Program-made: the position numbers and the translations under genes | Part shown: in pieces, positions 2,200-19,860 of the stretch | Position numbering within the stretch: position 1 is the stretch's first letter | How the letters are laid out: each line of letters opens with the position of its first letter | The notes under the pieces: generated by a model | What the model saw: the letters and a program-made list of their open reading frames with translations, nothing else | Databases searched by the model: none | Told to the model about the DNA's origin: nothing | Source: a virus | Reading direction: 5' to 3' (one strand) | IMG/VR virus record: IMGVR_UViG_3300032213_000255 | Coordinates: 1 to 20,181 of that record | DNA length: 20,181 nt

Positions 2200-4872
2200 A
2201 TGGCTGAACGCAACAACGCCCCTCCCCGCATGACCGCCCTCGGCCTGCTCGAGCAGATGCGCCGGTCCAATGCTGCAAACCGAGAGCCCGAGTTCAACCC
2301 GATCAGCGCGACCTTGCGCGAGCGGCGTGCTGGCCCTACCACCCCGCTATTCGGTGGCCAGCGCCAGCCGCCCCTGCCGATCCCGCCGCGCCCGCCTGCC
2401 GTTATCCCCCCGCAGCAGACCCAACAGGCCGCGCCACAGGCTCGTGGGCAGGCTCAGGCACTGCCGGTGCCACCTGTTCCCCCGGCGGTTATTCCGCAGC
2501 AGGAAGGTGCGCCTGCGAGGCCAATCGCTGAGAGGTTCAATCCGCAAAACCCACATGTGGCGACCGCCATCGAAATGGCCGAACGCTACAACCTGCCGCG
2601 CAATGTGTTCTTGTCGCTGGTGCAGCAAGAAAGCCGTTTCCGTCCCGATGCTGTAAGCCGGGCCGGTGCGTTGGGGCTTGGGCAGTTAATGCCCGGCACG
2701 GCGCGCGACCTGGGCGTTGATCCCACAAACCCCGTGCAGAACCTTGAGGGCAGCGCGCGCTACCTGCGCCAGCAGCTTGACCGGTTCGGCGGTGACATGC
2801 CGCTGGCCTTGGCGGCGTACAACGCAGGCCCTCGACGGGTGGTCGAAGCGGGCAATGCAATTCCCGATAATGCCGAGACGCAGGCGTATGTGCCGAGCGT
2901 GATGCGTCGCGCTGGCGTGCCGGGTTACGCTGAAGGCGGTGCAGTGGACGCAATACCGGTACACGAGATAAACGTGGTGGCGACCCGCCTTCCGCGTCGT
3001 CGCGCACCGCGCCCGGCCCCGCGCGAGGAACTGACGGCGGACCAACTGAACGCCATGGTGCTGGACAGGCTCGCCGCGCGCTATGACGTGGCTCCTGAAT
3101 CCATCATGGCTGCCGAAGCCCGTGACCGCATTGGTCGGGCGATGGGTTACGCTGAGGGTGGGCTGGCCAATCTGCATCAGAAATACGCCGATGGCGGCGA
3201 GGTTATGAGCGACGAAGAATATGATCGCCGCCTGCTTGGGCGCATGCAGCGTGATATGGGCCGCACCGACGTGCCTAGCTGGGATGAACAGCGCGCCACA
3301 CTGGTTGATGCTGCCGGTCGCGCTGCGCGCGGCGTCTTCGACGTCGTCGTGCCACAGACGCCGCTCGACGTGGGTCTCACCCTGGCGACGGGGCCGGTCG
3401 GTTCTATGGTGCGCCGTGGCGCAATCGCAGGCACAGGCTACCTGCTAGACCCCGATGAGGCTCAGGCCAACGTCATTCGCCGCGTGGGACGCGCCCTTGG
3501 CCGTGCTGGTGCCGGGTCGGCAGATGCCGCCCTGGAAGCCGCAGCAACCCCTGTGTCTCCCACACGCCGCCGTGGCACTATTGGCATCATTCCCGAAGAG
3601 ACGCCCCGCGCACCTGCGGTGCTGCCGTCTGCTGCGCGCGAAGCAAACGCTGCGACGGACCTGCAAGACGAAACGCTCCGAGCATATCTGGACCGCAACA
3701 GCACTCGTGAACCGACGGTGAGGACACTGCCCGAAGGGGAAGACGTCTTGGGTTTGCGGAACTACGACCTCTCTGAAGTGCCCGATGTGCCACAAGTTGA
3801 CCTGCCTAGGGTTGTGCCGCCAAGAGGCGTGTCGGCTCGCATGTCCGACCTAGTCAGTAACGAGGATGTCTGGCGCGAATACAGCGACCTCGTTCGCAAT
3901 GGCCGCGACAATTTGCAAGGCCGCGAGTGGTACAACATGGAACCGCTGCGCCATGCTTTTGTGCGCGAACTTGGTGAAGACGAAGGCACTGCCGCATTCC
4001 GTCATTACACGCAAAACATCGCAGCCACGTCGCCGCGTTCCAACATCATCGACAATATGCGGAACGCCTCATATTACTTTGTGCAGGAACCGAGCGGTTT
4101 AATTTTGCCCGTGCGGCAACCTGCGCCTTATGGTCACCTTGCTCAAAACTTGCACCGGCAGAACGTCGAGACAATCCGCAGCCCTGAAGGTTGGGATTTG
4201 TTTAAAAATCCGAAACCTCCGTCATTTGCCGAAAATCTTGGTGGCAACCAGCGCCCCGGCACCATGGACGCACATGCGCTGTCGGTCCCGTCAATTTTGT
4301 CGAGAGACCCGCGCTTTCTGACGACTGATCTTCGGATTCCTTCTGGTGGGGACTATTTTAATCTTAAGCCTCGCGCAAGTTATGGTCGGGGTGTGTTCAC
4401 AATGGATGAAGCGGTTCGTCGCCCGCAATTGTGGGATGCTGCGCCAAATCCAAACGAATACGGTGCTTTGGAGCAGCGTTTCCGCCGTTTGGGTGAAGAC
4501 CTGGGCATGACCACGGCACAGGCGCAAGCCAGCGGCTGGGTTGGCGGTGGCCGTATTTCTGGCCTGACATCGCCGCCGCTTCCTGCTGTGGACGTGTTCC
4601 AGCGCGTCGTGAACCGCACCGCTGCCCAAGAAGGTCGCAGCCCTCAAGAAGTATTGCGTGGTTTTATCCACCGGCAGAACGCGCTTCGCGCTGCTGCGCC
4701 GATTGCCATCGGCGTGGGTGCCAATGAAGAACTTGATGGTTACGCCCACGGTGGTCTCGCCCAGCTTCATCACAAATACGCCGAGGGTGGCGCGGTCAGT
4801 GCTCAACCTGCTATCTACGATCCTGACGCGGTAAACGCGCTCGCCAATCAAATTGAGGCTGGATATGTCTGA
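2200..4872 (+). CDS. Large virion-type protein with lytic transglycosylase (SLT) domain
   Basis: An 890-residue protein. Residues 1-110 are a Pro/Gln-rich linker. Residues about 113-235 form an SLT/lysozyme-like domain with the catalytic Glu144 in QQESRF, then GALGLGQLMPGTA, and AYNAGP at 206-211; this fold cleaves peptidoglycan. YAxGG motifs follow at 243, 317, 329, 848 and 860, twice arranged as a pair joined by LAxLHxKY. Residues about 380-425 are hydrophobic and Ala/Gly-rich. Residues about 540-830 hold an unrecognised second region (GTMDAHALSVPS near 687) that resembles parts of large multidomain phage proteins. An AGGAAG site lies before ATG 2200, and the 3' end overlaps the portal start by eight bases. 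The likely role is an injected protein that opens the cell wall during DNA entry. The domain call is firm; the virion role is inferred from position. Confidence 0.88.
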   Translation: MAERNNAPPRMTALGLLEQMRRSNAANREPEFNPISATLRERRAGPTTPLFGGQRQPPLPIPPRPPAVIPPQQTQQAAPQARGQAQALPVPPVPPAVIPQQEGAPARPIAERFNPQNPHVATAIEMAERYNLPRNVFLSLVQQESRFRPDAVSRAGALGLGQLMPGTARDLGVDPTNPVQNLEGSARYLRQQLDRFGGDMPLALAAYNAGPRRVVEAGNAIPDNAETQAYVPSVMRRAGVPGYAEGGAVDAIPVHEINVVATRLPRRRAPRPAPREELTADQLNAMVLDRLAARYDVAPESIMAAEARDRIGRAMGYAEGGLANLHQKYADGGEVMSDEEYDRRLLGRMQRDMGRTDVPSWDEQRATLVDAAGRAARGVFDVVVPQTPLDVGLTLATGPVGSMVRRGAIAGTGYLLDPDEAQANVIRRVGRALGRAGAGSADAALEAAATPVSPTRRRGTIGIIPEETPRAPAVLPSAAREANAATDLQDETLRAYLDRNSTREPTVRTLPEGEDVLGLRNYDLSEVPDVPQVDLPRVVPPRGVSARMSDLVSNEDVWREYSDLVRNGRDNLQGREWYNMEPLRHAFVRELGEDEGTAAFRHYTQNIAATSPRSNIIDNMRNASYYFVQEPSGLILPVRQPAPYGHLAQNLHRQNVETIRSPEGWDLFKNPKPPSFAENLGGNQRPGTMDAHALSVPSILSRDPRFLTTDLRIPSGGDYFNLKPRASYGRGVFTMDEAVRRPQLWDAAPNPNEYGALEQRFRRLGEDLGMTTAQAQASGWVGGGRISGLTSPPLPAVDVFQRVVNRTAAQEGRSPQEVLRGFIHRQNALRAAAPIAIGVGANEELDGYAHGGLAQLHHKYAEGGAVSAQPAIYDPDAVNALANQIEAGYV
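4855..4858 (+). promoter_or_regulatory. Ribosome binding site fixing the portal start
   Basis: GAGG sits six bases before ATG 4865, inside the end of the transglycosylase gene. It favours that ATG over the in-frame TTG at 4853. Confidence 0.6.
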
Positions 4873-4897
4873 CACTCTCAAAGACGATGACGACGAC
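4865..4897 (+). repeat. Start segment shared with the scaffold gene, copy 1
   Basis: The first 33 coding bases of the portal match the first 33 of the gene at 8186 at 29 positions by hand alignment. Both encode MSxTL, a basic residue and an acidic run. The copies are in direct orientation. Confidence 0.7.
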
Positions 4898-7441
4898 AAG
4901 CCCGGCGAGATGATTGAACTCGATGACGAGGACAATCTTGAGGTCGAGGATACCGAAGACGGCGGCGCGATCATCCGGCTCGAGAACAACAAGGATGAGA
5001 AGCGCCACCTCGAGCACTTCGCAAACATTGTCGACGAGGTCGATCAGGCGGCGTTGAAGGATGTTGTCAGCGACCTGCTCGAGAAGATTGAGCGCGACAA
5101 GGAAGCCCGCGAGAAGCGGGACAAACTGTATGAGGAAGGGCTGCGCCGTACTGGCCTGGGCGACGATGCCCCCGGCGGTGCTCAGTTCAGCGGCGCAAAC
5201 AAAGTCGTACACCCAATGCTGGTGGAAGCCTGCGTGGATTTCTCCGCACGCTTCATGAAAGAAATTTTTCCGTCGAACGGGCCGGTTAAGAGCAAAATTT
5301 ACGGCGAAGCGGACAAAGCCAAGCTCGAAAAGGCTGAGCGTAAAGCCGCCTTCATGAACTGGCAGACGACGCAGCAGATGCCCGAGTTCCGCAGCGAACT
5401 GGAGCAACTGAGCACCCAGCTTCCGCTCGGTGGCGGTCAATACCTCAAATTCATGTGGAACCCGCAGCACCGTCGTCCGCAGGCCGAGTTTGTGCCGATT
5501 GATGACGTGTATCTGCCGTTTGCGGCCACGAACTTCTACACCGCCGAGCGCAAGACGCACGTTCAGTACATCACGAAGATGGAGTACCTGAAGCGGGTCA
5601 AGGCGGGCATGTATGTCGATGTTGATCTTGGGTATCCTGATGATCCCGAGTTCAGCAAGGCGACGATTGCCAACGACAAGATCGAGGGTCGCAAATCGAC
5701 CAGCTACAACGAGGATGGCCTGCGGACCATCTTTGAAATCTACACCTACCTCGACATCGAAGACGAAGACCTCTGCCCGTACATTCTGAGCGTCGACAAG
5801 TCGACCGGCGAGGCCCTGGCGCTCTATCGCAACTGGGAGCCGGATGATGCCCGGCACCAAGAACTTGATTGGATCGTCGAGTTCCCGTTCGTGCCCTGGC
5901 GCGGTGCGTACCCCATCGGCCTGACGCATATGATTGGCGGCCTCTCAGGAGCCGCCACAGGGGCCTTGCGTGCGTTGCTGGATAGCGCCCACATCCAGAA
6001 CATCCCCACCCTCCTGAAGCTCAAGGGTGGCCCTGGCGGGCAGACGATCAACCTCCAGCCGACCGAAGTGGTCGAGATGGATGGCGGTGCTCTTGTTGAC
6101 GACGTCCGCAAGATCGCCATGCCGATGCCGTTCAACCCGCCAAGCCCGACGCTGTTTCAGCTTTTGGGGTTTTTGGTGGATGCCGGTAAGGGTGTCATCC
6201 AAACCAGCTTCGAGAAGCTGAGCGATCAGAACGCCAATCAGCCTGTCGGCACCACGATGGCCCTGATTGAGCAGGGCATGGTGGTGTTTTCGAGCATTCA
6301 CGCTCGTTTGCACAACTCGATGGCCCGGTGTTTCAAGATTTTGCACCGGATCAACTCGGCATATCTGACCGAAGAGGACATTGCGGCCCAATCTGACGGG
6401 CTGGAGATCGACCCGTCCGATTTTGATGGCCCGCTCGACGTCGTGCCGGTCAGTGACCCGGCAATTTTCTCCGAAACGCAGCGTTTTGCCCAAATTCAGG
6501 CGATCATGGCGCGCGCAACGGCGATGCCGCAGCTATATGACCCTCGCAAGGTCGAGGAGATGTTCCTCCGCACCCTAAAAGTTCCGGCAAACGAGGTTCT
6601 CCAGCCGGAACCAGCCCAGGACAACATGGACCCGGTGAGCGAAAACGTCGCTGCTGCCATGGGTCGGCCTATTTATGTGCTGCCGCAACAGGATCACCTC
6701 GCTCACATCATGATCCACATGGCATTCCTGAAATCGCCGCTATTTGGCAGCAATCCGGCAATCACGAAGACGTTTTTGTATCCGATTTCGGTGCATTTGC
6801 GCGACCACCTGCTGAATTATTACCTTGTTGAGGCGCATAATTCTGTTGATATTGCTCAGAAAAAGGAACTGATCCCTGAAGAGGCCAAGGATCAGGCCAA
6901 ACTCATTATGCAGGTTCAGCAGTACATTGAGCAGCAGTTGGGTGGCATGGCGCAGGAACTCGCCGCTATCGACCAAGCTGCCCAGCAGTTTGCACCCCAG
7001 TCGCAGATGCCGCCTGACAGCAGCATGCAAGTCGCCCAGCTTGGTGCCCAGGTGCAGCAGATGGCCATTCAGCAGCGCGCCCAGACCGACCAGCAGCGTG
7101 CTCAGGTTGATCAGCAGCGGCTTGCAATGCAGGCACAGTCCGATCAGCAGAAGGCTCAGCTTGAGCAGCAGAAGGCTCAGATCGACCAACAGCGTCTCGC
7201 GATGCAGGCCCAGCTTGAGCAGGCGAAGCTCCAGGGCAAGCAGATCGAACTTGTCGAGAAGCTGCGGGCCGACCAGCTTAAGGAAGCCGCAGAGAACGAG
7301 CGCAAGGCGGCAGAACTTGCTTCCCGTGAGCGCATGAATCAGGCGGATAACGACACCGCCAAATTGCTTGCCGCTGCCGAAATGGCGACTGGCGAGAAGG
7401 TGGCGGTCAGCACCGGCACCGGCATCAACCCAAATCCATAG
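4865..7441 (+). CDS. Portal protein, P22-like, with Gln-rich coiled-coil tail
   Basis: An 858-residue portal. Twelve copies would form the ring at one capsid vertex through which the terminase pumps DNA and to which the tail attaches. An acidic N-terminus (residues 5-40, including DDDDDK) leads into the portal body at about 60-690, with family-type stretches such as FVPWRGAYPIGLTHMIGGLSG and DQNANQPVGTTMALIEQ. From about residue 693 to 826 the protein is Gln/Ala-rich heptad sequence (DQQRAQVDQQRLAMQAQ repeats). This is probably a long helical barrel running into the capsid, as in P22. The length is far above T7-type portals (about 535) and above P22 gp1 (725). ATG 4865 is chosen for the GAGG site and the match to the scaffold gene's start. 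The stop runs into the AGGAG site of the next gene. Confidence 0.9.
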   Translation: MSDTLKDDDDDKPGEMIELDDEDNLEVEDTEDGGAIIRLENNKDEKRHLEHFANIVDEVDQAALKDVVSDLLEKIERDKEAREKRDKLYEEGLRRTGLGDDAPGGAQFSGANKVVHPMLVEACVDFSARFMKEIFPSNGPVKSKIYGEADKAKLEKAERKAAFMNWQTTQQMPEFRSELEQLSTQLPLGGGQYLKFMWNPQHRRPQAEFVPIDDVYLPFAATNFYTAERKTHVQYITKMEYLKRVKAGMYVDVDLGYPDDPEFSKATIANDKIEGRKSTSYNEDGLRTIFEIYTYLDIEDEDLCPYILSVDKSTGEALALYRNWEPDDARHQELDWIVEFPFVPWRGAYPIGLTHMIGGLSGAATGALRALLDSAHIQNIPTLLKLKGGPGGQTINLQPTEVVEMDGGALVDDVRKIAMPMPFNPPSPTLFQLLGFLVDAGKGVIQTSFEKLSDQNANQPVGTTMALIEQGMVVFSSIHARLHNSMARCFKILHRINSAYLTEEDIAAQSDGLEIDPSDFDGPLDVVPVSDPAIFSETQRFAQIQAIMARATAMPQLYDPRKVEEMFLRTLKVPANEVLQPEPAQDNMDPVSENVAAAMGRPIYVLPQQDHLAHIMIHMAFLKSPLFGSNPAITKTFLYPISVHLRDHLLNYYLVEAHNSVDIAQKKELIPEEAKDQAKLIMQVQQYIEQQLGGMAQELAAIDQAAQQFAPQSQMPPDSSMQVAQLGAQVQQMAIQQRAQTDQQRAQVDQQRLAMQAQSDQQKAQLEQQKAQIDQQRLAMQAQLEQAKLQGKQIELVEKLRADQLKEAAENERKAAELASRERMNQADNDTAKLLAAAEMATGEKVAVSTGTGINPNP
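7072..7215 (+). repeat. Gln-rich coiled-coil coding repeats within the portal gene
   Basis: Imperfect direct repeats encode alternating QQRAQ, QQKAQ and QQRLAMQAQ blocks. The unit DQQRLAMQAQ occurs twice about 70 bases apart. The pattern is that of a heptad coiled coil grown by internal duplication. Confidence 0.75.
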
Positions 7442-7449: not shown

Positions 7450-7590
7450 ATGGACGACAAACCTAAGAAGAACGGCACGGTGCCGATGACCGGTGCCTAT
7501 GTGAAGCAGAAGCACCGCCTTGCGGCGGGTGAGAAACTCGACGGCCAGTCTCTGCCGCCTGAACCGAAGACTGAAAAGAATCAGGCGTGA
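7450..7590 (+). CDS. Short phage protein (46 residues), unknown function
   Basis: The frame encodes a hydrophilic 46-residue peptide: a lysine-rich start (MDDKPKKNG), a middle GAYVKQKHRLAAGEKLDG and a Pro/Lys-rich end. No known domain, membrane segment or cysteine is present. It is supported by a well-placed AGGAG, by filling the gap between the portal and the next gene with no wasted bases, and by the GTGA overlap at its end. The composition suggests a largely disordered small structural or regulatory protein, but I recognise no relative. Confidence 0.6.
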   Translation: MDDKPKKNGTVPMTGAYVKQKHRLAAGEKLDGQSLPPEPKTEKNQA

Positions 7591-7781
7591 ACGAAGGTAA
7601 ACTGCTCAATTTTTTGAAGCAGGCCCAGTTGCAATTTTCTGTGGACGCCCTGAAACGTCCACAGGAACGCGATGCCTTTGAGTATGGGTATCGCGTCGGC
7701 GTAGTTGCCGGATACGAGGCAGCTATTGGCGTGCTGTTAAAACTCATCGAAGAGGAGAAATCTGGTGGTAACGACTTCTGA
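7587..7781 (+). CDS. Small helical protein, unknown function
   Basis: A 64-residue protein from GTG 7587, which overlaps the preceding stop as GTGA, suggesting coupled translation. The sequence looks helical. It has one moderately hydrophobic stretch (YRVGVVAGYEAAIGVLLKLI, about 38-57) ending in EEEKSGG; it could be an amphipathic helix rather than a true membrane span. The last 17 bases overlap the co-chaperonin gene in another frame, and its EEEK codons supply that gene's AGGAG site. The function is unknown. Confidence 0.65.
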   Translation: MNEGKLLNFLKQAQLQFSVDALKRPQERDAFEYGYRVGVVAGYEAAIGVLLKLIEEEKSGGNDF

Positions 7782-8172
7782 GGACGCCCTGGCAGAGGCT
7801 TTCCCGGATGTAAATCCGGGCGTTCAGCCTTTTGGGAGCCGCGTTCTGGTTCAAATCCGTACCCCTCGCAAAGTCACAAAGGGCGGTATCATCCTGTCCT
7901 CTGACACGCAGGACACCGAAAAGTGGAACACTCAGGTGGCCAAGGTGGTCAGCGTTGGGTCGTTGGCGTTCCGAAATCGGACCACGCAAGAGTTCTGGCC
8001 CGAAGGCGCGTGGTGCGTGCAAGGCGATTTCGTCCGCGTGCCGAAATACGGCGGCGACCGCTGGGAAGTGGCGATCAACCGCGACGACAGCGCCATGTTC
8101 GTGATCTTTAACGATTTGGATATTATCGGCCAAGTCACGGGTGATCCGCTGACGGTCAAGGCTTTCATCTGA
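7765..8172 (+). CDS. GroES-like co-chaperonin (Cpn10 family)
   Basis: A 135-residue Cpn10-type protein expected to cap GroEL rings while a client folds. After about 20 extra N-terminal residues, PFGSRVLVQI aligns with the first strand of GroES. KGGIIL (39-44) matches the GroES mobile loop SAGGIVL, so Ile42-Ile43-Leu44 would be the GroEL contact triplet. EGAWCVQGDFVRVPKYGG corresponds to the VGDIV strand and roof loop, and FNDLDIIGQV to the final strand. At 135 residues it is longer than bacterial GroES (97) and nearer T4 gp31 (111), with a longer middle segment. GTG 7765 is preceded by GAGGAG. The position just before the scaffold and capsid genes suggests capsid folding as its main task, by analogy with gp31. 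No GroEL gene is in the window, so it would use host GroEL. Confidence 0.85.
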   Translation: MVTTSEDALAEAFPDVNPGVQPFGSRVLVQIRTPRKVTKGGIILSSDTQDTEKWNTQVAKVVSVGSLAFRNRTTQEFWPEGAWCVQGDFVRVPKYGGDRWEVAINRDDSAMFVIFNDLDIIGQVTGDPLTVKAFI

Positions 8173-8185
8173 AAGGAGATGAATT

Positions 8186-8218
8186 ATGTCTGGCACTCTG
8201 AGAGAAGATGACGACAAG
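8186..8218 (+). repeat. Start segment shared with the portal gene, copy 2
   Basis: This is the partner of the segment at 4865, with four mismatches in 33 bases. The bases upstream of the two starts do not match, so the similarity begins at the ATG. Confidence 0.7.
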
Positions 8219-9106
8219 GACGAGGAAATCGTCATTGTCGAAGACCCCAGTCAGCTATCTGACAACGATCAGGATGACGATGACGCTGATGACCGCGTAG
8301 CCTCATCCGGCGACGATGATGAGCGCGATGCCATTCGCGAGCGTCGTCGTGCCGAGAAGCAAGACCGCAAGGTTCGCCGCGACGAGGCAATCAAGCGCGA
8401 CAAGCTCGAGCTAGACTTCCTCCGCAAGCGCAACGACGACCTCGAGCGCCGCGTCAGCGTCCAAGAGCATCGAGCCCACAACTCAGACTTGAGCGCATAT
8501 GATAACGCTCTCAATCAAGCCGCCCACGAAGCCGACATGGCCGAGCGGGTCATTGCCAAGGCGGTTGCTGCCGGTAACGGCGACGACGTCACACAGGCGA
8601 TGCGATACCGGGATCAGGCACTGGCGCGTATCCAGCAACTGCACGCCCAGAAAAATCAGGTGGCTCAGCAGGCCCCCCAGCGTCCGCAGCAACAGCAGCA
8701 GATTGACGAGACCACCCTGCGCTATGCTCGAGACTTCATCGAAAAGAACCCCTGGTATGACGCGACGGGTGGTAACGAAGACTCGGCGGTCGTCATTGCC
8801 ATTGACCAATCCTTGGCAAAAGACGGTTTCGACCCTCGCACCTCGGAGTATTGGGACGAACTGAACAAGCGAGCGGCACGCCGCCTGCCCGAAAGGTTCG
8901 AGAAATCCGCTTCCCGGCGCGAGCCGCGCGGTGGTCCGGTGGTGGGCTCTGGTCGTGAGCACGCCCCGACAAGCACTCGTCGTGAGGTGTATATCTCGCC
9001 CGAGCGCAAGCAAGCCCTAGTGGAAGCGGGCGTCTGGGATGACCCGGTTCTGCGTTCCAAGTACGTCAAACGGTATGCCGAATATGACCGGAACAACAAG
9101 GCGTGA
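8186..9106 (+). CDS. Probable capsid scaffolding protein
   Basis: A 306-residue, highly charged protein between portal and capsid genes, the usual place for a scaffold. The N-terminus is acidic (residues 7-48, with DDDD runs). A predicted coiled coil follows (about 50-95, rich in Arg, Lys and Glu), then a helical Gln-rich segment (about 150-175). The C-terminal half has YARDFIEKNPWYDATGG and RREVYISPERKQALVEAGVW, and the end is basic (VKRYAEYDRNNKA). Acidic start, helical middle and basic helical end fit scaffolds that bind capsid protein through their C-terminus. AAGGAG lies seven bases before ATG 8186. The first eleven codons nearly repeat those of the portal. No sequence motif is diagnostic, so the call rests on position and composition. 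Confidence 0.75.
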   Translation: MSGTLREDDDKDEEIVIVEDPSQLSDNDQDDDDADDRVASSGDDDERDAIRERRRAEKQDRKVRRDEAIKRDKLELDFLRKRNDDLERRVSVQEHRAHNSDLSAYDNALNQAAHEADMAERVIAKAVAAGNGDDVTQAMRYRDQALARIQQLHAQKNQVAQQAPQRPQQQQQIDETTLRYARDFIEKNPWYDATGGNEDSAVVIAIDQSLAKDGFDPRTSEYWDELNKRAARRLPERFEKSASRREPRGGPVVGSGREHAPTSTRREVYISPERKQALVEAGVWDDPVLRSKYVKRYAEYDRNNKA

Positions 9107-9156
9107 AAAAACCTTGCGCGCTGGTTTCAAAAACCCTAATGCTTCCTCAATCGCTG

Positions 9157-9163
9157 AAAGGAG
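9157..9163 (+). promoter_or_regulatory. Ribosome binding site fixing the start at 9171
   Basis: AAAGGAG lies seven bases before ATG 9171. It rules out the longer open frame that runs back to 9039 inside the scaffold gene. Confidence 0.75.
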
Positions 9164-9170
9164 CGATTTA

Positions 9171-9701
9171 ATGACCGACGAACGCTTGAAAAAATCTGCT
9201 GGTGAAGGCCGCGAGAGCCGCGCGATGCAAGATCGCGCTGTTACTCAAAATCGCGAAGTCTCTGATGATGAGCGGGTTGCTATGTTTCGTCAGCAATTCT
9301 TCCAGTCCTCTCTTCCAGACCTGCCAAAAATCCCCGGCTGGCACACATGCTGGCTGACAACCACCAATCCCCGTGACTCGATTCACATGCGTATTCGACT
9401 GGGCTACGAGCCCGTGAAGCCGGAAGATGTTCCCGGCTGGGAATATGCGACGTTGAAGACCGGCGACTGGACTGGGCTCATTGGCGTCAACGAGATGCTT
9501 GCCTTCAAGCTACCGATTTCTCTTTACGAGAAGTACATGCAGGAGGCGCACCATGACGCCCCATTGCGTGAGGAAGAGAAGCTCACCGACACTGCCGATT
9601 TCCTCGAGCAGCAGGCGCGGGCTTCGAAATCCAAACTGCAAATTGGGGAAGGCAATCTGGAGATTGGGCAGCAGCGGGAGGCCATGTTTGACCTCTCGTA
9701 A
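9171..9701 (+). CDS. Conserved-looking phage protein between scaffold and capsid genes
   Basis: A 176-residue protein of unknown function. The charged N-terminus (1-35) is followed by a globular core. The core contains IPGWHTCWLTTTNPRDSIHM at about 54-73, then the pattern LGYEPVKPEDVPGWEYATLK and a short hydrophobic stretch (LIGVNEMLAFKLPISLYEKY). The last 50 residues are helical and charged. Tryptophan/proline-rich cores like this occur in small proteins encoded just before capsid genes in aquatic podovirus-like phages, as I recall, without an assigned role. ATG 9171 follows a strong AAAGGAG. Sixty-four bases separate it from the scaffold gene, holding only that site and a weak hairpin. It could be a minor capsid or capsid assembly protein; this is positional inference. 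Confidence 0.72.
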   Translation: MTDERLKKSAGEGRESRAMQDRAVTQNREVSDDERVAMFRQQFFQSSLPDLPKIPGWHTCWLTTTNPRDSIHMRIRLGYEPVKPEDVPGWEYATLKTGDWTGLIGVNEMLAFKLPISLYEKYMQEAHHDAPLREEEKLTDTADFLEQQARASKSKLQIGEGNLEIGQQREAMFDLS

Positions 9702-9725: not shown

Positions 9726-10319
9726 ATGTCTGCCATTAGCGCACCTTTTGGCTTTCGCCCGTCTTACCACAACAGTGGTCAGATGCGTCCGAAGGCTTAC
9801 ACCATCACAAGCGCCTATGCCGCGAACATCTTCTCCGGTGACCCGGTGAAGCTGACCGACAACGGCGTCATCCAGCTTGGCACGTCTGACGGCACCCGCT
9901 CGGGTACGACTGACGGCATTTCCCTGCTGGGTATCTTCGCTGGCTGCCAGTATCTCGATGCTTCCGGCAAGCCGACGATCAGCCCCTTCTGGCCCTCGGG
10001 CGCTACAGGCACGGAAATCGTGGCTTGGGTGTACGATGACCCGGAAACGCTGTTTGACGTCCAGTACACCAACCCCTCGGCGGGCACGACTGTGCAGACC
10101 GCAGTGGGTGAGGAGTTTGACTGGACTGTCGCCTCTCCGGGCGGTTCCACCCAGACGGGTCTCAGCAACTGCCAGATCGGTGTCATCCAGGCGACGTCCG
10201 GTCAGTTCCAGATGACTGGGTTTGCCGACAACATCAACGATTCGCTGACCGATGCCTATGTGCAAGTGACTGTTCGTATCAACGAGCATCACTACAAGGC
10301 AGCGGTTAACTCGGTCTAA
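9726..10319 (+). CDS. Probable capsid decoration or minor head protein
   Basis: A 197-residue, beta-rich, Gly/Ser/Thr-rich protein directly before the major capsid gene. It begins MSAISAPFGFRPSYHNSGQ and has a core with SGDPVKLTDNGVIQLG and ISLLGIFAGCQYLD. A charged turn (WVYDDPETLFDVQYTN) and a final strand region (DAYVQVTVRINEHHYK) follow. Similar proteins with an APFGFRP opening are encoded beside capsid genes of many uncultured marine and freshwater phages and are annotated as structural, by recollection. AGGAG lies five bases before the ATG. The beta-rich make-up and position suggest a capsid surface or stabilising protein. The exact role is not shown by the sequence. Confidence 0.7.
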   Translation: MSAISAPFGFRPSYHNSGQMRPKAYTITSAYAANIFSGDPVKLTDNGVIQLGTSDGTRSGTTDGISLLGIFAGCQYLDASGKPTISPFWPSGATGTEIVAWVYDDPETLFDVQYTNPSAGTTVQTAVGEEFDWTVASPGGSTQTGLSNCQIGVIQATSGQFQMTGFADNINDSLTDAYVQVTVRINEHHYKAAVNSV

Positions 10320-10333
10320 GGGGGGTCTGACAC

Positions 10334-11248
10334 ATGGCTACACCAATGCGTAGTACCGACTTCCGGTCGGTAGTTGAGCCCATCCTGAACGAAGTCTTCG
10401 ACGGCGTTTATGATCAGCGCGCTGATGAATGGAAGATGGTTTTCCGCGAGCAGAAGGGCATTCCCCGCAATTACCATGAAGAGCCCGTGCTCTATGGTTT
10501 TGGCGCGGCCCCTGAACTGCCCGACGGCATGGCCGTTAGCTACCAGAGCGGTGGCGTTCTGTTCCTCCAGCGTTACCTCTACAAGGTCTACGGTCTGGCC
10601 TTCAGCCTGACCAAGGTGCTTGTTGAGGACGGTGATCACATCCGCATCGGCCAGACCTACGCGAAGCATCTCGCGCAGTCTCTGATCGAGACGAAGGAGA
10701 CGCTGGGTGCGAACATCCTGAACCGCGCGTTCAATGCTGCCTATCCGGGCGGTGACGGCGTGGCTCTGAATGCCAATAACCACCCCATCGTCAACGGCAC
10801 GTTCTCCAACGTGCTGACCACGCCTGCGGCGCTGTCGCAGACCTCGCTGGAGCAGTTGCTCATCCAGATTCGCAATGCCGTCGACAACAACGGCAAGCGC
10901 ATCCGGCTGACGCCGAAGAAGATCGTGACGGGTCCGTCCAACGTCTTCCAGGCGGAAGTACTGCTCAAGTCCGTGCTGCGTACCGGCACCGCTGACAACG
11001 ACATCAACCCGGTGAAGTCGATGGGCCTCCTGTCCGATGGTCAGGCGAACCTGTCGCGTATCACCTCCACCACCGCGTGGTGGGTTCAGACCGACGCCCC
11101 CGAAGGTCTGAAGCTGATGATGCGTCGCGGTCTCGAGAAGAGCATGGAAGGTGACTTCGAAACCGACAGCATGCGATACAAGGCGACCGAGCGTTATACT
11201 TTTGGTTTTACAGACCCGCGCGGTATCTTTGGTACCGCTGGCGTCTAA
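10334..11248 (+). CDS. Major capsid protein, HK97 fold
   Basis: A 304-residue capsid protein that would build the icosahedral head. Family-type features are the N-terminal helix (RSTDFRSVVEPILNEVFDGVYD), then KGIPRNYHEEPVLYGFG and YLYKVYGLAFSLTKVLVEDG. The segment ETLGANILNRAFNAAYPGGDG leads into the HP-containing loop (NNHPIVNGTFSN), and the spine-helix region is SLEQLLIQIRNAVDNNGKRI. Near the C-terminus come TADNDINPVKSM and ITSTTAWWVQTD. There is no large N-terminal delta domain, consistent with a separate scaffold gene upstream. AAGGGGGG lies before the ATG. An intrinsic terminator follows within 30 bases, which would let this gene be the most abundant message end. Assignment as capsid is confident; I relate it loosely to the Mu gpT-like group. 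Confidence 0.92.
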   Translation: MATPMRSTDFRSVVEPILNEVFDGVYDQRADEWKMVFREQKGIPRNYHEEPVLYGFGAAPELPDGMAVSYQSGGVLFLQRYLYKVYGLAFSLTKVLVEDGDHIRIGQTYAKHLAQSLIETKETLGANILNRAFNAAYPGGDGVALNANNHPIVNGTFSNVLTTPAALSQTSLEQLLIQIRNAVDNNGKRIRLTPKKIVTGPSNVFQAEVLLKSVLRTGTADNDINPVKSMGLLSDGQANLSRITSTTAWWVQTDAPEGLKLMMRRGLEKSMEGDFETDSMRYKATERYTFGFTDPRGIFGTAGV

Positions 11249-11253
11249 TTGGG

Positions 11254-11280
11254 TGGGGGGCCTCGGCCCCCCATTCGCTT
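11254..11280 (+). terminator. Intrinsic terminator after the capsid gene
   Basis: TGGGGGG (11254-11260) pairs with CCCCCCA (11267-11273) around a six-base CCTCGG loop. A T-rich but interrupted tail (TTCGCTTT) follows. It lies right after the capsid stop codon at a real gap between genes. A perfect T-run is lacking, so termination may be partial. Confidence 0.75.
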
Positions 11281-11362: not shown

Positions 11363-11770
11363 ATGGCTTCAACTACATTTTCCGGTCCCGTCACTTCTAC
11401 CAATGGTTTCATCGGTGCCATCACCGGCAACGTAACCGGCAACGTGACCGGCAACGTGACCGGCAACATCACGGGCATCGTGACCGGTACCGTTCAGCTT
11501 CTGTCTGGCGCGGGCGCAGTCAACCTGACCACCGCTGTCACCTGCATCACCACCACTGGCGCATCCCAGGCTCTTACCTTGGCCAATGGCGCGGTCGGTC
11601 AGTTCAAGACCATTGTTCACACTGTGGATGGCGGCTCGGCAGTGCTCACCCCGACCACGGCAATTGGTTTTACGACCGTCACGTTCACCAACGTCGGTGA
11701 CTCGGTGCAGTTGTACTATTCCTCGACGGGTTGGGCGGTCATCGGTTCCAAGGGCGTCACAATCGCTTGA
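11363..11770 (+). CDS. Phage structural protein with GNVT tandem repeats
   Basis: A 135-residue protein. The N-terminus (MASTTFSGPVTSTNGFIGAI) leads into TGNVTGNVTGNVTGNITG (about 21-38), a four-residue repeat that likely forms an extended or trimeric fibrous stem. A C-terminal beta domain follows with DGGSAVLTPTT, GFTTVTFTNVGDSVQLYY and a WAVIGSKGV ending. Similar C-terminal domains are common in small phage virion proteins and in fibre tips, to my knowledge. GAGGATATTATC precedes the ATG. The gene is the first after the capsid terminator. A short head fibre or decoration protein is the most likely role, but a tail role cannot be excluded. Confidence 0.72.
   Translation: MASTTFSGPVTSTNGFIGAITGNVTGNVTGNVTGNITGIVTGTVQLLSGAGAVNLTTAVTCITTTGASQALTLANGAVGQFKTIVHTVDGGSAVLTPTTAIGFTTVTFTNVGDSVQLYYSSTGWAVIGSKGVTIA
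11423..11494 (+). repeat. 12-base tandem repeat (ACCGGCAACGTG), about six units
   Basis: Units start at 11423, 11435, 11447, 11459, 11471 and 11483. Copies 2 and 3 are identical, copy 1 differs at one base, and later copies decay. The array is in frame and codes for the T-G-N-V unit. Confidence 0.9.
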
Positions 11771-12484: not shown

Positions 12485-13304
12485 AACGCTGAAATACGTT
12501 TCCGAGTTCACATTCCCATCCGCCGGTAAAACGGCGGCACCGGGTTATGCCAAGGGCGGCATGAAGAAAGCGGACGGCGGCCCTGTCAAGAATGGCCGCG
12601 AGATGCTCGGAAATATGACTGACGCCGAAATGCGTGCTGCTATGCGCGAAAATGCTCGCCGGAAAATGGACAGCAATCTGACTGACGCTGAAATGCGTGC
12701 TCTCGCGCGCGAAAATGCTCGCCGGGAAATGGGTGCCCATCCCACTGATGCCGAAATGCGCGCTTTTATGCGCGAATATCCCGGTTATGCCAAAGGCGGC
12801 ATGGCGATGCGGAAGCAGTACCCGACAAACCGCCAGGAGCCGATGATCCCGGCGGCTGGCATGAAGTCAACCAAGCCTGCCGCTTCGCCCGCTCCGAAGA
12901 GTGACATGCTGTACAGCAAGAAGGAGAACACCGCTAAGACCCTCTTGGCTGACGGCAAGGGCGCACCCATGCCGCATGCCAAGGGTTCGGTGAACATGGC
13001 TATGGGCGGCATGGCGATGTCCCCCGCTCAAGCAGCCACCGCCCAGGTTCTGGCAAACCGCCAAGCCGCAATGGCTCGCGCCCCCGCCATGCCCATGCGT
13101 GCCATGGCCAAAGGCGGTATGGCCAAGGGTGGCATGAGTGACTGCGGCATGGCCAAGGGCGGCATGTCCAAGGTCGGCAAGGTCATGGGCGAGTTCAAAG
13201 CCGGTGAACTGCATTCCGGCAGCAAGAACGGCCCCATGGTGACGAACCGTAAGCAGGCGGTTGCCATCGGCATGTCGGAAGCCCGCAAGGCTTCCAAGAA
13301 GTAG
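12477..13304 (+). CDS. Repeat-rich protein with YAKGG motifs and C-terminal DUF6496 domain
   Basis: A 275-residue low-complexity protein. YAKGG motifs are at 24-28 and 104-108. Between them are two and a half 21-residue repeats (TDAEMRA..RENARR.M). Residues about 150-205 are Ala/Met/Pro-rich. Four further KGGM units cluster at about 209-230, interrupted by SDCG. The last 44 residues (from 232, KVGKVMGEFKAGELHSGSKN then NRKQAVAIGMSEARK) match the small basic domain I know as DUF6496, found in phage and bacterial proteins without known function. ATG 12477 is preceded by AAGGG and starts inside the upstream gene. YAxGG links it to the transglycosylase protein. It may be a minor virion or injected protein; the function is unknown. 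A strong hairpin follows the stop. Confidence 0.78.
   Translation: MGKTLKYVSEFTFPSAGKTAAPGYAKGGMKKADGGPVKNGREMLGNMTDAEMRAAMRENARRKMDSNLTDAEMRALARENARREMGAHPTDAEMRAFMREYPGYAKGGMAMRKQYPTNRQEPMIPAAGMKSTKPAASPAPKSDMLYSKKENTAKTLLADGKGAPMPHAKGSVNMAMGGMAMSPAQAATAQVLANRQAAMARAPAMPMRAMAKGGMAKGGMSDCGMAKGGMSKVGKVMGEFKAGELHSGSKNGPMVTNRKQAVAIGMSEARKASKK
12615..12779 (+). repeat. 63-base tandem repeat, 2.6 units
   Basis: Units start at 12615, 12678 and 12741 (the last one partial). Each in-frame unit encodes TDAEMRA, a variable pair and RE(N)AR-type sequence. Conservation at base level is high enough to suggest recent duplication. Confidence 0.85.
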
Positions 13305-17119: not shown

Positions 17120-17836
17120 ATGATGGCCGCCAGCGGATTTACGCCGATCCAGTTGTACCGCACGACGACCGCTGCGGCGGTGCCGTTGACTGCGAACCTT
17201 GCGCCCGGCGAACTCGCGATCAACATCGCAAACACCGACATGGCGCTGTTTGCTGAAAACGCCTCGGGCACCGTCGTTCGCCTGATGAACAACCCGGCGG
17301 GGTTGAAATACCCCACCGCCGATGGCACGAATGGTCAGGTGGTCACGACCAACGGGTCGGGCACGCTTACATTCTCGACGCCTTCGAGTGGTCTGACGGT
17401 CGGCACCACATCTATTACCGGCGGCACGTCTGGTTATGCCCTGTTCAACAACGCAGGCACGCTGGGTAACACCAACACGCTGACGAGCTTCACGCTGTCT
17501 GCTGTGACCATCAACGACGGCTATACCGAAGAGACGGTCACAGCCAACACGACCACGGCTTACACAATTTCTCTTGCCAACGGCACCTTGCAAATCCTGA
17601 CGCTGACTGGCAATTGCACGTTTACGTTCCCAACAGCCACCGCAGGTCAGTCGTTCATGATGTTCCTGAAGCAGGACGCTACCGGCAGTAGAACCGTGAC
17701 GTGGCCTGCGGCGGTCAAGTGGCCAAACTCAGTTGCACCGACAATTACCTCGACAGCCAGCAAAGGCGATAAATTCGTGTTCACTGCTGATGGTACGAAC
17801 TGGCTGGGTTCAGTTGCTGGGCAGAATTACCTCTAA
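17120..17836 (+). CDS. Fibre-type structural protein
   Basis: A 238-residue protein. The N-terminus (GFTPIQLYRTTTAAAVPLTA, then LAPGELAINIA) is a common start of phage tail or baseplate-linked fibres. The middle (about 75-135) is Gly/Thr-rich shaft (GTNGQVVTTNGSGTLTF). The C-terminal domain (about 140-238) has TLTGNCTFTFPTATAGQSFM, LKQDATGSRTVTWPAAVKWP and FVFTADGTNWLGSVAGQNYL, a widespread fibre-end or structural domain. GAGG is four bases before ATG 17120 and seven before ATG 17123, so the second ATG may be the real start. The stop overlaps the propeller gene by one base (TAATG). The two are probably co-translated and may act together at the tail tip. Confidence 0.75.
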   Translation: MMAASGFTPIQLYRTTTAAAVPLTANLAPGELAINIANTDMALFAENASGTVVRLMNNPAGLKYPTADGTNGQVVTTNGSGTLTFSTPSSGLTVGTTSITGGTSGYALFNNAGTLGNTNTLTSFTLSAVTINDGYTEETVTANTTTAYTISLANGTLQILTLTGNCTFTFPTATAGQSFMMFLKQDATGSRTVTWPAAVKWPNSVAPTITSTASKGDKFVFTADGTNWLGSVAGQNYL

Positions 17837-19860
17837 TGTTTAGCGCAAACACAACTCAGGTTGCGCTCGCAACACCGGCCAGGGCAATTGCGGTTGGAAG
17901 TGCAGGTAATCCGTACATCAACGTATATTCATGGACGACAGCGAGCGGCTTTGGAGCTAAGTATGCTAATCCTGCCACTTTGCCCACAGACGTTTATGGT
18001 GTAGCATTTAGCCCTAATGGGTCAGAAATAGCGGCTGCGGCAAGCTCAAGCCCGTATATTTTTGCTTACCCTTGGTCTGGGAATGGGTTTGGAACTAAAT
18101 ATTCTAACCCAGCCACGTTGCCTGGAACTGATTGTCGCAGTGTGGCGTTTACCGCTAATGGAAGCGCAATAGCAGTTGGTTCAACAGGTACTCCTTTTAT
18201 AACAGCATATCCTTGGTCCAGTTCTGGGTTTGGAACCAAGTATGCAAATCCCGCTGTTTTGCCAGCGACGTTTGGTTACAGCGTGGCATTTGACCCCAGC
18301 GGTTCAGCTATATCTGTCGGAACGGCAGTTGGAGTTGATGCTTATGCGTGGTCTTCTTCTGGATTTGGGACAAAATACTCCGCCCCTTCGACCTTGCCAG
18401 GGAGTGGTTATGGTGTAGCTTTTAGTCCAGACGGAAATTCTTTGGCCGTTGCTTCAATAGTTTCACCATTTATTTATGTATACCCCTGGACAACAGCAAG
18501 TGGTTTTGGAACTAAGTACGCCAATCCGGCTACTTTACCAACAGGTAACGGGCTTAGCGTAGCATTTAGTCCTAATAACAGAGCAATTGCCGTTGGTCAC
18601 AATACAACCCCGTTCGTGTCTGCATATCCGTGGACAGGTTCCAGCTTTGGAACCAAATACGCTAACCCATCCACCTTGCCGGCTGGTACAGGTTATGGCG
18701 TAGCGTTCAGCAAAGACGCCGGAGCCCTAGCAGTGGCTCATATTACCAGTCCCAACGTCTCAGTATATGCGTGGTCCGCAAGCGGTTTTGGAGCCAAATA
18801 CGCCGATCCATCAACTGCGGTGGGCTCTCTCGGTACGAGCGTCGCCTTCACATCCGGCGGGTATCCGGTTCAGCAGATTGCTGTTGCTCATGCCACATCT
18901 CCTTATGTGACAGCGTATCCGTGGTCTTCTAGTGGATTTGGTACTAAGTATGCTGATCCGGCGACATTACCGGCCGGAACCAGTGTCAAAATTGCGTTTA
19001 ACCCTGATGGCACTGCTGTTGCTGCTATTTCTCCCGCAGGGGCAATATCTGCATATCCCTGGTCAGGTTCTGGATTTGGCACTAAATACTCAGACCCTTC
19101 AAGCGGATCTTCAGGACGTGGTGTAGCATTTAGTCCTAACGGTCTTGCCATAGCTATTGGAACACAGTCCACATCGCCTTATGTGGATGTATATAGATGG
19201 TCTTCAAGCGGCTTTGGAATTAAATATTCTGATCCGGCAACACCGCCAACCACCAGATCAAATAGTGTAGTGTTTAGTCCTGACAATTCTGCCATTGCAA
19301 CAGTTAATGACTCAACTCCATTTGTATTTGTATACCCGTGGACCACAGCAAGTGGTTTTGGAACTAAATATGCTAATCCTTCAACATTGCCAACTGGCAT
19401 TGGAAATGCTGTAGCATTCAGCCCAAACGGTTCGGCAATTGCTGTTGCTCATAATACAACACCGTATGTGTCCGCTTATCCTTGGACAACGGCTGGTGGG
19501 TTTGGAACTAAATATGCAAACCCGGCGACCCTGCCAACTGGCAATGGAACTGGCGTTGCCTTTAGCCCGGACAGTTCTGCTATCGCAATTTCGTTTGATG
19601 ATACACCTTATATTTCAGCATATCCATGGTCTGGCTCTGGTTTTGGAACTAAATATGCTAATCCGGCTACGCTTCCGACAGGCCCTGGGCGCACCGTTGC
19701 ATTCAATAGTGATGGTTCTGCTATTGCAATTGCGTTTGATACAACACCATTTATAACTGCATATCCGTGGTCCGGCTCTGGTTTTGGAACTAAGTATGCT
19801 AATCCGGCTACGCTGCCGACAGGCACTGGCTACGGCGTTGCCTTCAACACAATCATTTAG
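17836..19860 (+). CDS. Fourteen-repeat WD40-like beta-propeller protein
   Basis: A 674-residue protein made almost wholly of 14 repeats of about 44-50 residues. The consensus is AIAVAHxTxPYVxAYPWSxSGFGTKYANPATLPTGxGxxVAFSPDGS. The VAFSPDG, AIAV and YPW parts match the inner strands of WD40 blades, although the usual WD dipeptide is PW here. Fourteen repeats fit two seven-bladed propellers. The sequence begins at the AIAV strand and ends after VAF, which would let the ends close a ring. No catalytic motif, signal peptide or anchor is seen. G+C is lower than next door: 27 of 60 bases at 18061-18120 against 36 of 60 at 17701-17760. There is no clear ribosome site, so it is probably coupled to the gene before it by TAATG. 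A receptor-binding or glycan-binding tail protein is the best guess. Confidence 0.8.
   Translation: MFSANTTQVALATPARAIAVGSAGNPYINVYSWTTASGFGAKYANPATLPTDVYGVAFSPNGSEIAAAASSSPYIFAYPWSGNGFGTKYSNPATLPGTDCRSVAFTANGSAIAVGSTGTPFITAYPWSSSGFGTKYANPAVLPATFGYSVAFDPSGSAISVGTAVGVDAYAWSSSGFGTKYSAPSTLPGSGYGVAFSPDGNSLAVASIVSPFIYVYPWTTASGFGTKYANPATLPTGNGLSVAFSPNNRAIAVGHNTTPFVSAYPWTGSSFGTKYANPSTLPAGTGYGVAFSKDAGALAVAHITSPNVSVYAWSASGFGAKYADPSTAVGSLGTSVAFTSGGYPVQQIAVAHATSPYVTAYPWSSSGFGTKYADPATLPAGTSVKIAFNPDGTAVAAISPAGAISAYPWSGSGFGTKYSDPSSGSSGRGVAFSPNGLAIAIGTQSTSPYVDVYRWSSSGFGIKYSDPATPPTTRSNSVVFSPDNSAIATVNDSTPFVFVYPWTTASGFGTKYANPSTLPTGIGNAVAFSPNGSAIAVAHNTTPYVSAYPWTTAGGFGTKYANPATLPTGNGTGVAFSPDSSAIAISFDDTPYISAYPWSGSGFGTKYANPATLPTGPGRTVAFNSDGSAIAIAFDTTPFITAYPWSGSGFGTKYANPATLPTGTGYGVAFNTII
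17878..19857 (+). repeat. Fourteen tandem coding repeats of about 130-150 bases
   Basis: Each unit contains a TATCCNTGG-type block (YPW) and TTTGGAACTAAATATGCTAA-type block (FGTKYAN). The last two units are nearly identical over about 70 bases (from 19618 and 19759), and units 1, 5, 11 and 12 share an extra TTA(S/G) insert (YPWTTASGFG). Such an array could gain or lose blades by recombination. Confidence 0.85.

Follow-up and report, generated by a model that had tools for sequence, protein, structure and literature searches.

Why should a phage carry its own GroES-like co-chaperonin gene upstream of its capsid gene, and which protein would such a lid serve? The question was raised by a virus fragment of 20,181 bases (the window, i.e. 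the whole stretch of DNA that was analysed), in which a sequence-only reading had recognized a phage-encoded GroES within the head genes. The window holds a head module with all genes in one direction, in the order terminase part, 890-aa transglycosylase protein, portal, 64-aa ORF, Cpn10, scaffold-like ORF, two further ORFs and capsid.

The Cpn10 gene and its neighbours

The ORF at 7765..8172 (+ strand; 135 aa, 14.9 kDa) encodes a Cpn10-family protein. It matched the Pfam model Cpn10 (PF00166) over model positions 2-92 of 93, with E = 3.3e-9 and a score of 37.1 bits, the cut-off being 21.1. Its PHROG name was 'co-chaperonin GroES', and all of its sequence matches in the PDB were Cpn10-type chains. 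An AlphaFold model of the monomer, based on an alignment of 84 sequences, had a mean pLDDT of 91.8. When this model was used in a structural search, the top rows were GroES/Hsp10-type chains, with Z values from 10.1 (94 residues, rmsd 2.6) down to 7.0. T4 gp31 was found among them at Z 7.8 and 7.0, and unrelated oxidoreductases came next, at about 6. A fold other than Cpn10 had been set beforehand as a possible refutation; the predicted fold was Cpn10. The best score to the NCBIfam GroES models was only 29.4 bits, against a cut-off of 120. As these models scored so far under their cut-offs, we regard the protein as a diverged Cpn10 and not a canonical GroES. The gene itself is not new. Homologues have already been annotated as GroES in Caulobacter phage RW and other phages, and it is a core gene in pelagiphages.

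The gene starts with GTG and lies where the sequence-only reading had put it; an AGGAG ribosome-binding site, read from the sequence, is located 7 nt 5′ of the start (7753..7757, +). The preceding 64-aa ORF (7587..7781, +), which had homologues at 139 of the 163 loci searched, overlaps the start of the Cpn10 gene by 17 nt at its 3′ end. This overlap suggests that the translation of the two genes may be coupled. Further upstream is the gene of the portal protein (4853..7441, +; 862 aa, 96.4 kDa; phrog_1216 portal, E = 2.6e-15). Downstream, an acidic and highly charged ORF of 306 aa (8186..9106, +; 39% charged residues) matched no named family in the Pfam, PHROG and NCBI model searches, and we call it scaffold-like from its position and make-up. 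It is followed by two conserved capsid-block ORFs, one at 9039..9701 (+), whose true start is possibly further in, and one of 197 aa at 9726..10319 (+; phrog_37556, E = 2.9e-12). Then comes the Mu gpT-like major capsid protein (10334..11248, +; 304 aa, 33.6 kDa; Phage_capsid_4, E = 1.3e-10), whose median length was also 304 aa across 246 loci. The earlier statement that Cpn10 stands directly before scaffold and capsid thus held for the gene order; the scaffold is a putative one, proposed from position and make-up, and the capsid gene is the fourth gene after Cpn10. A terminator-like hairpin lies 3′ of the capsid gene (11255..11271, +), a consensus match of a kind found seven times in the region against 4.6 expected. 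Consensus matching found no sigma-70-like promoter between 7300 and 11400.

Some other features of the window were also recorded. A GIY-YIG endonuclease ORF (1115-1762; Pfam E = 4e-6) lies directly 3′ of the terminase; the annotation of Caulobacter phage RW breaks the terminase region into pieces that surround a methyltransferase gene. The 890-aa protein in the interval between terminase and portal (2200-4872) has a lytic transglycosylase SLT domain (E = 8.9e-24), a DUF7178 stretch and repeated KYA(D/E)GG-type motifs. Just 3′ of the capsid gene, a 12-base tandem repeat (11423-11487) encodes NVTG units in a 135-aa ORF, which is perhaps a decoration protein. A 63-base tandem repeat (12612-12776) lies in an ORF that ends in DUF6496. 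Many WD40-like propeller repeats were seen in a 674-aa protein (17836-19860), for which a WD40 model was the only one above its Pfam cut-off, and the end of its gene carries 141-base DNA repeats.

Docking loop, roof and tail of the protein

The motif KGGIIL (residues 39-44; 7879..7896, +) aligned with GGIVL of E. coli GroES, as the sequence-only reading had proposed, and is the predicted GroEL-docking motif of the mobile loop. We compared 111 capsid-linked phage Cpn10s (the window protein, 83 and 15 representatives at 80% identity, and 12 named phages) with 38 bacterial GroES. Position 25 (E. coli numbering) was I/L/V/F in 111/111 of the phage proteins and position 27 was V/I/L/M/F in 109/111; the loop glycine 24 was kept in 107/111. 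In GroES, I25 has a role in GroEL binding, according to the available text of PMC5575113. The positions that would dock on GroEL therefore appear to be kept in this phage family. All three triplet positions were V/I/L/M/F in only 85/111 phage members, compared with 38/38 bacterial GroES. At the middle position, Y, H, E, A, Q or D also occur; the non-hydrophobic exceptions include IEL, IHL and FQL, together with IIR in Planktothrix phage Pag-Yong1. The proposal of a kept hydrophobic triplet is thus right for the outer positions and overstated for the middle one. Loss of the triplet in close relatives had been the other possible refutation. Of the nearest viral loci, 80 were compared: 55 had GGIIL, 17 GGLIL and six GGIII, with one GSILL-type loop and one GGIHF.

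The middle of the protein is longer than in GroES, also as first described. The spacing from the hydrophobic triplet to VG was 19 residues in the window protein, 15 in E. coli GroES and 16 in T4 gp31; from VG to GD it was 21, 17 and 10 residues, respectively. Relative to E. coli GroES, the window protein is longer by 17 residues ahead of the triplet, by four in the distal arm of the mobile loop (7897..7953, +), which has a predicted helix near its start, by four in the roof segment (residues 66-86; 7960..8022, +) and by 13 after GD. The roof carries a P-x-G-x-W-C signature, with Trp in 97/111 and Cys in 84/111 of the phage family. At the same columns the bacterial GroES set had D/E/T and V/L, and Trp was not seen. 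By alignment, a C-terminal tail (TGDPLTVKAFI; 8137..8169, +) extends past the end of GroES, and a proline in the tail was present in 92/111 members. The family-specific changes include W83, C84, N116-D117 and the C-terminal tail.

Linkage to the capsid gene and descent

Capsid proteins of different clades served to collect three sets of 80 viral loci each, and a locus was counted as testable if it had at least 3.5 kb of sequence upstream of the capsid gene. Cpn10 was found upstream of the capsid gene at 62/62, 40/40 and 42/42 testable loci, i.e. 144/144 over the three clades, at a distance of about 2.0-3.3 kb. Conversely, wherever the sequence downstream of Cpn10 was long enough (44 loci), a capsid gene was present. 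The capsid-block neighbours of Cpn10 recurred at 139-153 of 163 loci. Among 20 named phage records with a window-type capsid protein, 18 had Cpn10 in this slot (12 seen in fetched regions and six by coordinates). MW202601 had its Cpn10 outside the capsid slot, and the 20th, MW202604, which has the same length and match coordinates as MW202601, was left outside the Cpn10 check. The E. coli GroES query matched 89 of 50,697 phage records and the gp31 query 1,355 of 50,697. A recognisable Cpn10 is therefore not a common phage gene. The family was already known; the test of its linkage is new here.

The Cpn10 gene of MW202601 (13699-14163) is one gene away from an annotated single-stranded-DNA-binding protein gene and away from the capsid block. 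In the outgroup around this record (capsid identity about 29%), no Cpn10 was found in the slot at any of nine loci, six of which had 3.5 kb of upstream sequence. Both long outgroup records (46 and 48 kb) encode Cpn10 elsewhere. The most divergent named records and the outgroup set were examined for a relative within the capsid lineage that lacks Cpn10; only slot-free ones were found, the short contigs with no match being uninformative on absence. Co-occurrence that survives the loss of linkage argues for a functional tie and against mere hitch-hiking, though in only two records of one clade.

In a tree of 78 rows, built on few columns and with long branches, a branch (98/93) set off 49 Cpn10s of the module; bacterial GroES were separate (97/80) and nine gp31 rows formed a third group (99/94). 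The off-slot Cpn10 of MW202601 was placed beside gp31 in this tree, although this placement may be false. When profiles were compared, the family gave E = 8e-18 to bacterial GroES and E = 1e-4 to gp31. Common ancestry with gp31 was considered because a first alignment set PEGFC of gp31 beside the PxGxWC roof and QPKEIKQKF beside the C-terminal tail. We dropped this as an alignment artefact, since PEGFC was not conserved in a wider gp31 alignment and the profiles were much nearer to bacterial GroES.

Cpn10 distances and capsid distances were correlated (r = 0.89 for 91 loci; 0.60, 0.42 and 0.44 within clades), as is expected for any co-inherited neighbours. For 20 sequences (190 pairs), with synonymous sites near saturation, the mean pN/pS was 0.22, which indicates purifying selection.

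Role of the phage lid and comparison with known systems

No GroEL gene (PF00118) was found in 22 related records, many of them fragments, and 14/14 controls were found. The partner is thus presumably the GroEL of the host, and the conserved docking residues imply capping. We consider it likely that the gene belongs to a capsid-bound lineage of phage Cpn10s, inherited together with the gpT-like capsid module, that acts as a lid of host GroEL and has the capsid protein as its main client. The monomers, modelled here singly, would assemble into a GroES-like seven-membered ring. I42 and L44 of KGGIIL may be the residues by which the mobile loops of this ring dock on host GroEL, and the ring would then cap the GroEL cage in place of host GroES. 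The major capsid protein would be the main client, possibly with other capsid-block proteins. We infer this client from the linkage and from the precedent of T4, in which gp23 is folded by GroEL with gp31, as the available part of PMC3012670 describes. The sequence-only reading had guessed at a capsid-specific co-chaperonin; this function is plausible, and the linkage supports it better than one genome could. For a capsid protein of this small size, the phage probably gains from an adjusted cage and not from a larger one; the chemistry of roof and walls, the cycling rate, or the supply of lids while capsid protein is made in a burst could each be what is adjusted. Cage enlargement of the gp31 type was set aside as the rationale, because the capsid protein is only 33.6 kDa in mass and the roof has more residues than that of GroES.

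The same linkage has to be weighed against a broader use. An extra or host-independent GroES, which would keep many phage and host proteins folding during infection with no preferred client, could change its place freely, but all 144 testable loci of three clades held Cpn10 in the capsid block, and we think such a general lid unlikely. It would agree with the place of the MW202601 gene, near an annotated single-stranded-DNA-binding gene and far from the capsid. The available text of PMC3012670 further reports that gp31 and CocO can substitute for GroES on essential E. coli proteins, and the core gene list of HTVC023P-type phages, in the part of PMC9599517 at hand, sets GroES beside replication and packaging genes. 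As the portal, the scaffold-like protein and the two other ORFs belong to the same block, linkage does not distinguish the capsid protein from them as the client. Any of these might be served instead, and the immediate neighbours of Cpn10, the 64-aa ORF and the scaffold-like ORF, recur with it at most of the loci searched (139-153 of 163). We nevertheless hold one of them to be an improbable main client. Scaffolds are usually soluble, and the portal, at 96.4 kDa, exceeds what the GroEL cage is known to take in. The precedent in T4, moreover, is the capsid protein (available part of PMC3012670).

It is also conceivable that the Cpn10 fold has lost capping and been turned into a part of the virion or an inhibitor of GroEL. 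The strong family-specific changes of the roof and tail (W83, C84, N116-D117 and the C-terminal tail) and the very low scores to canonical GroES models would fit this. Positions 25 and 27 and glycine 24 are conserved, however, for which a structural part would have no need, and this reading seems to us highly improbable.

If the lid does serve mainly the capsid protein, a wider reading can be put forward, tentatively and with some doubt. The family may be a second capsid-dedicated lineage of phage co-chaperonins apart from gp31, fixed in the gpT-like module, with a roofed dome bearing a near-invariant Trp-Cys and with a capsid protein that fits an ordinary GroES cage. The phages of the module are labelled as sipho-, podo- and myoviruses, and their hosts range from Caulobacter to cyanobacteria. 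If true, special lids would be needed for the chemistry or timing of the cage and not for its size. The need of T4 for gp31, although its host has GroES, is commonly attributed to cage size; the T4 head review, in the text of PMC3012670 that was available, notes that subtler features may decide. In the present lineage, a linked lid goes together with a capsid protein for which the normal cage should be large enough. The lineage is thus a natural test of size versus chemistry, and it includes phages of Caulobacter, a genetic host. Because the linkage is so strict, the Cpn10 gene is also a useful marker of the gpT-like capsid module in metagenomes.

No paper on the function of the capsid-linked Cpn10 lineage was found in the open-access literature that was searched. 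Its closest known member is the GroES of Caulobacter phage RW (QDH50451.1), which is known by annotation, has 69% identity over 95% of the window protein and occupies the same slot between the portal region and the capsid block. Further homologues are present in phages GB2A, RLK and KcrB. The GroES proteins of HTVC023P-type pelagiphages and of Roseobacter phages CRP-901/902 belong to the same family clade and show the same order from Cpn10 to capsid, with 31-37% identity to the window protein; the roof segment of HTVC023P is shorter. The available portion of PMC9599517 counts GroES among the core genes of 82 HTVC023P-type genomes. E. coli GroES has the fold (1aon_O, Z 8.6) and the mobile-loop motif in common with the window protein, but the PxGxWC roof signature is not a bacterial GroES pattern. 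The less ordinary features of the family are this signature and the fact that it is so strictly coupled to a capsid protein of small size.

T4 gp31 is likewise a phage-encoded protein with the Cpn10 fold (2cgt, Z 7.8), and a role as capsid co-chaperonin is expected in both. The detailed likeness drawn earlier did not stand. The gp31 family is a distinct clade with a weak profile match, and the neighbours of T4 gene 31 are rIII and 31.1 rather than capsid genes, so that the capsid-block position of the window gene is not what gp31 would lead one to expect. According to the available text of PMC6318259, gp31 has no roof loops and is accounted for by a larger cage for gp23 of ~56 kDa. In comparison, the window protein keeps a roof, longer than that of GroES, and its capsid protein has 33.6 kDa, which makes cage size an unlikely reason for the lid. 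The comparison with gp31 thus holds as one of function only, and a capsid specificity of the window protein is putative.
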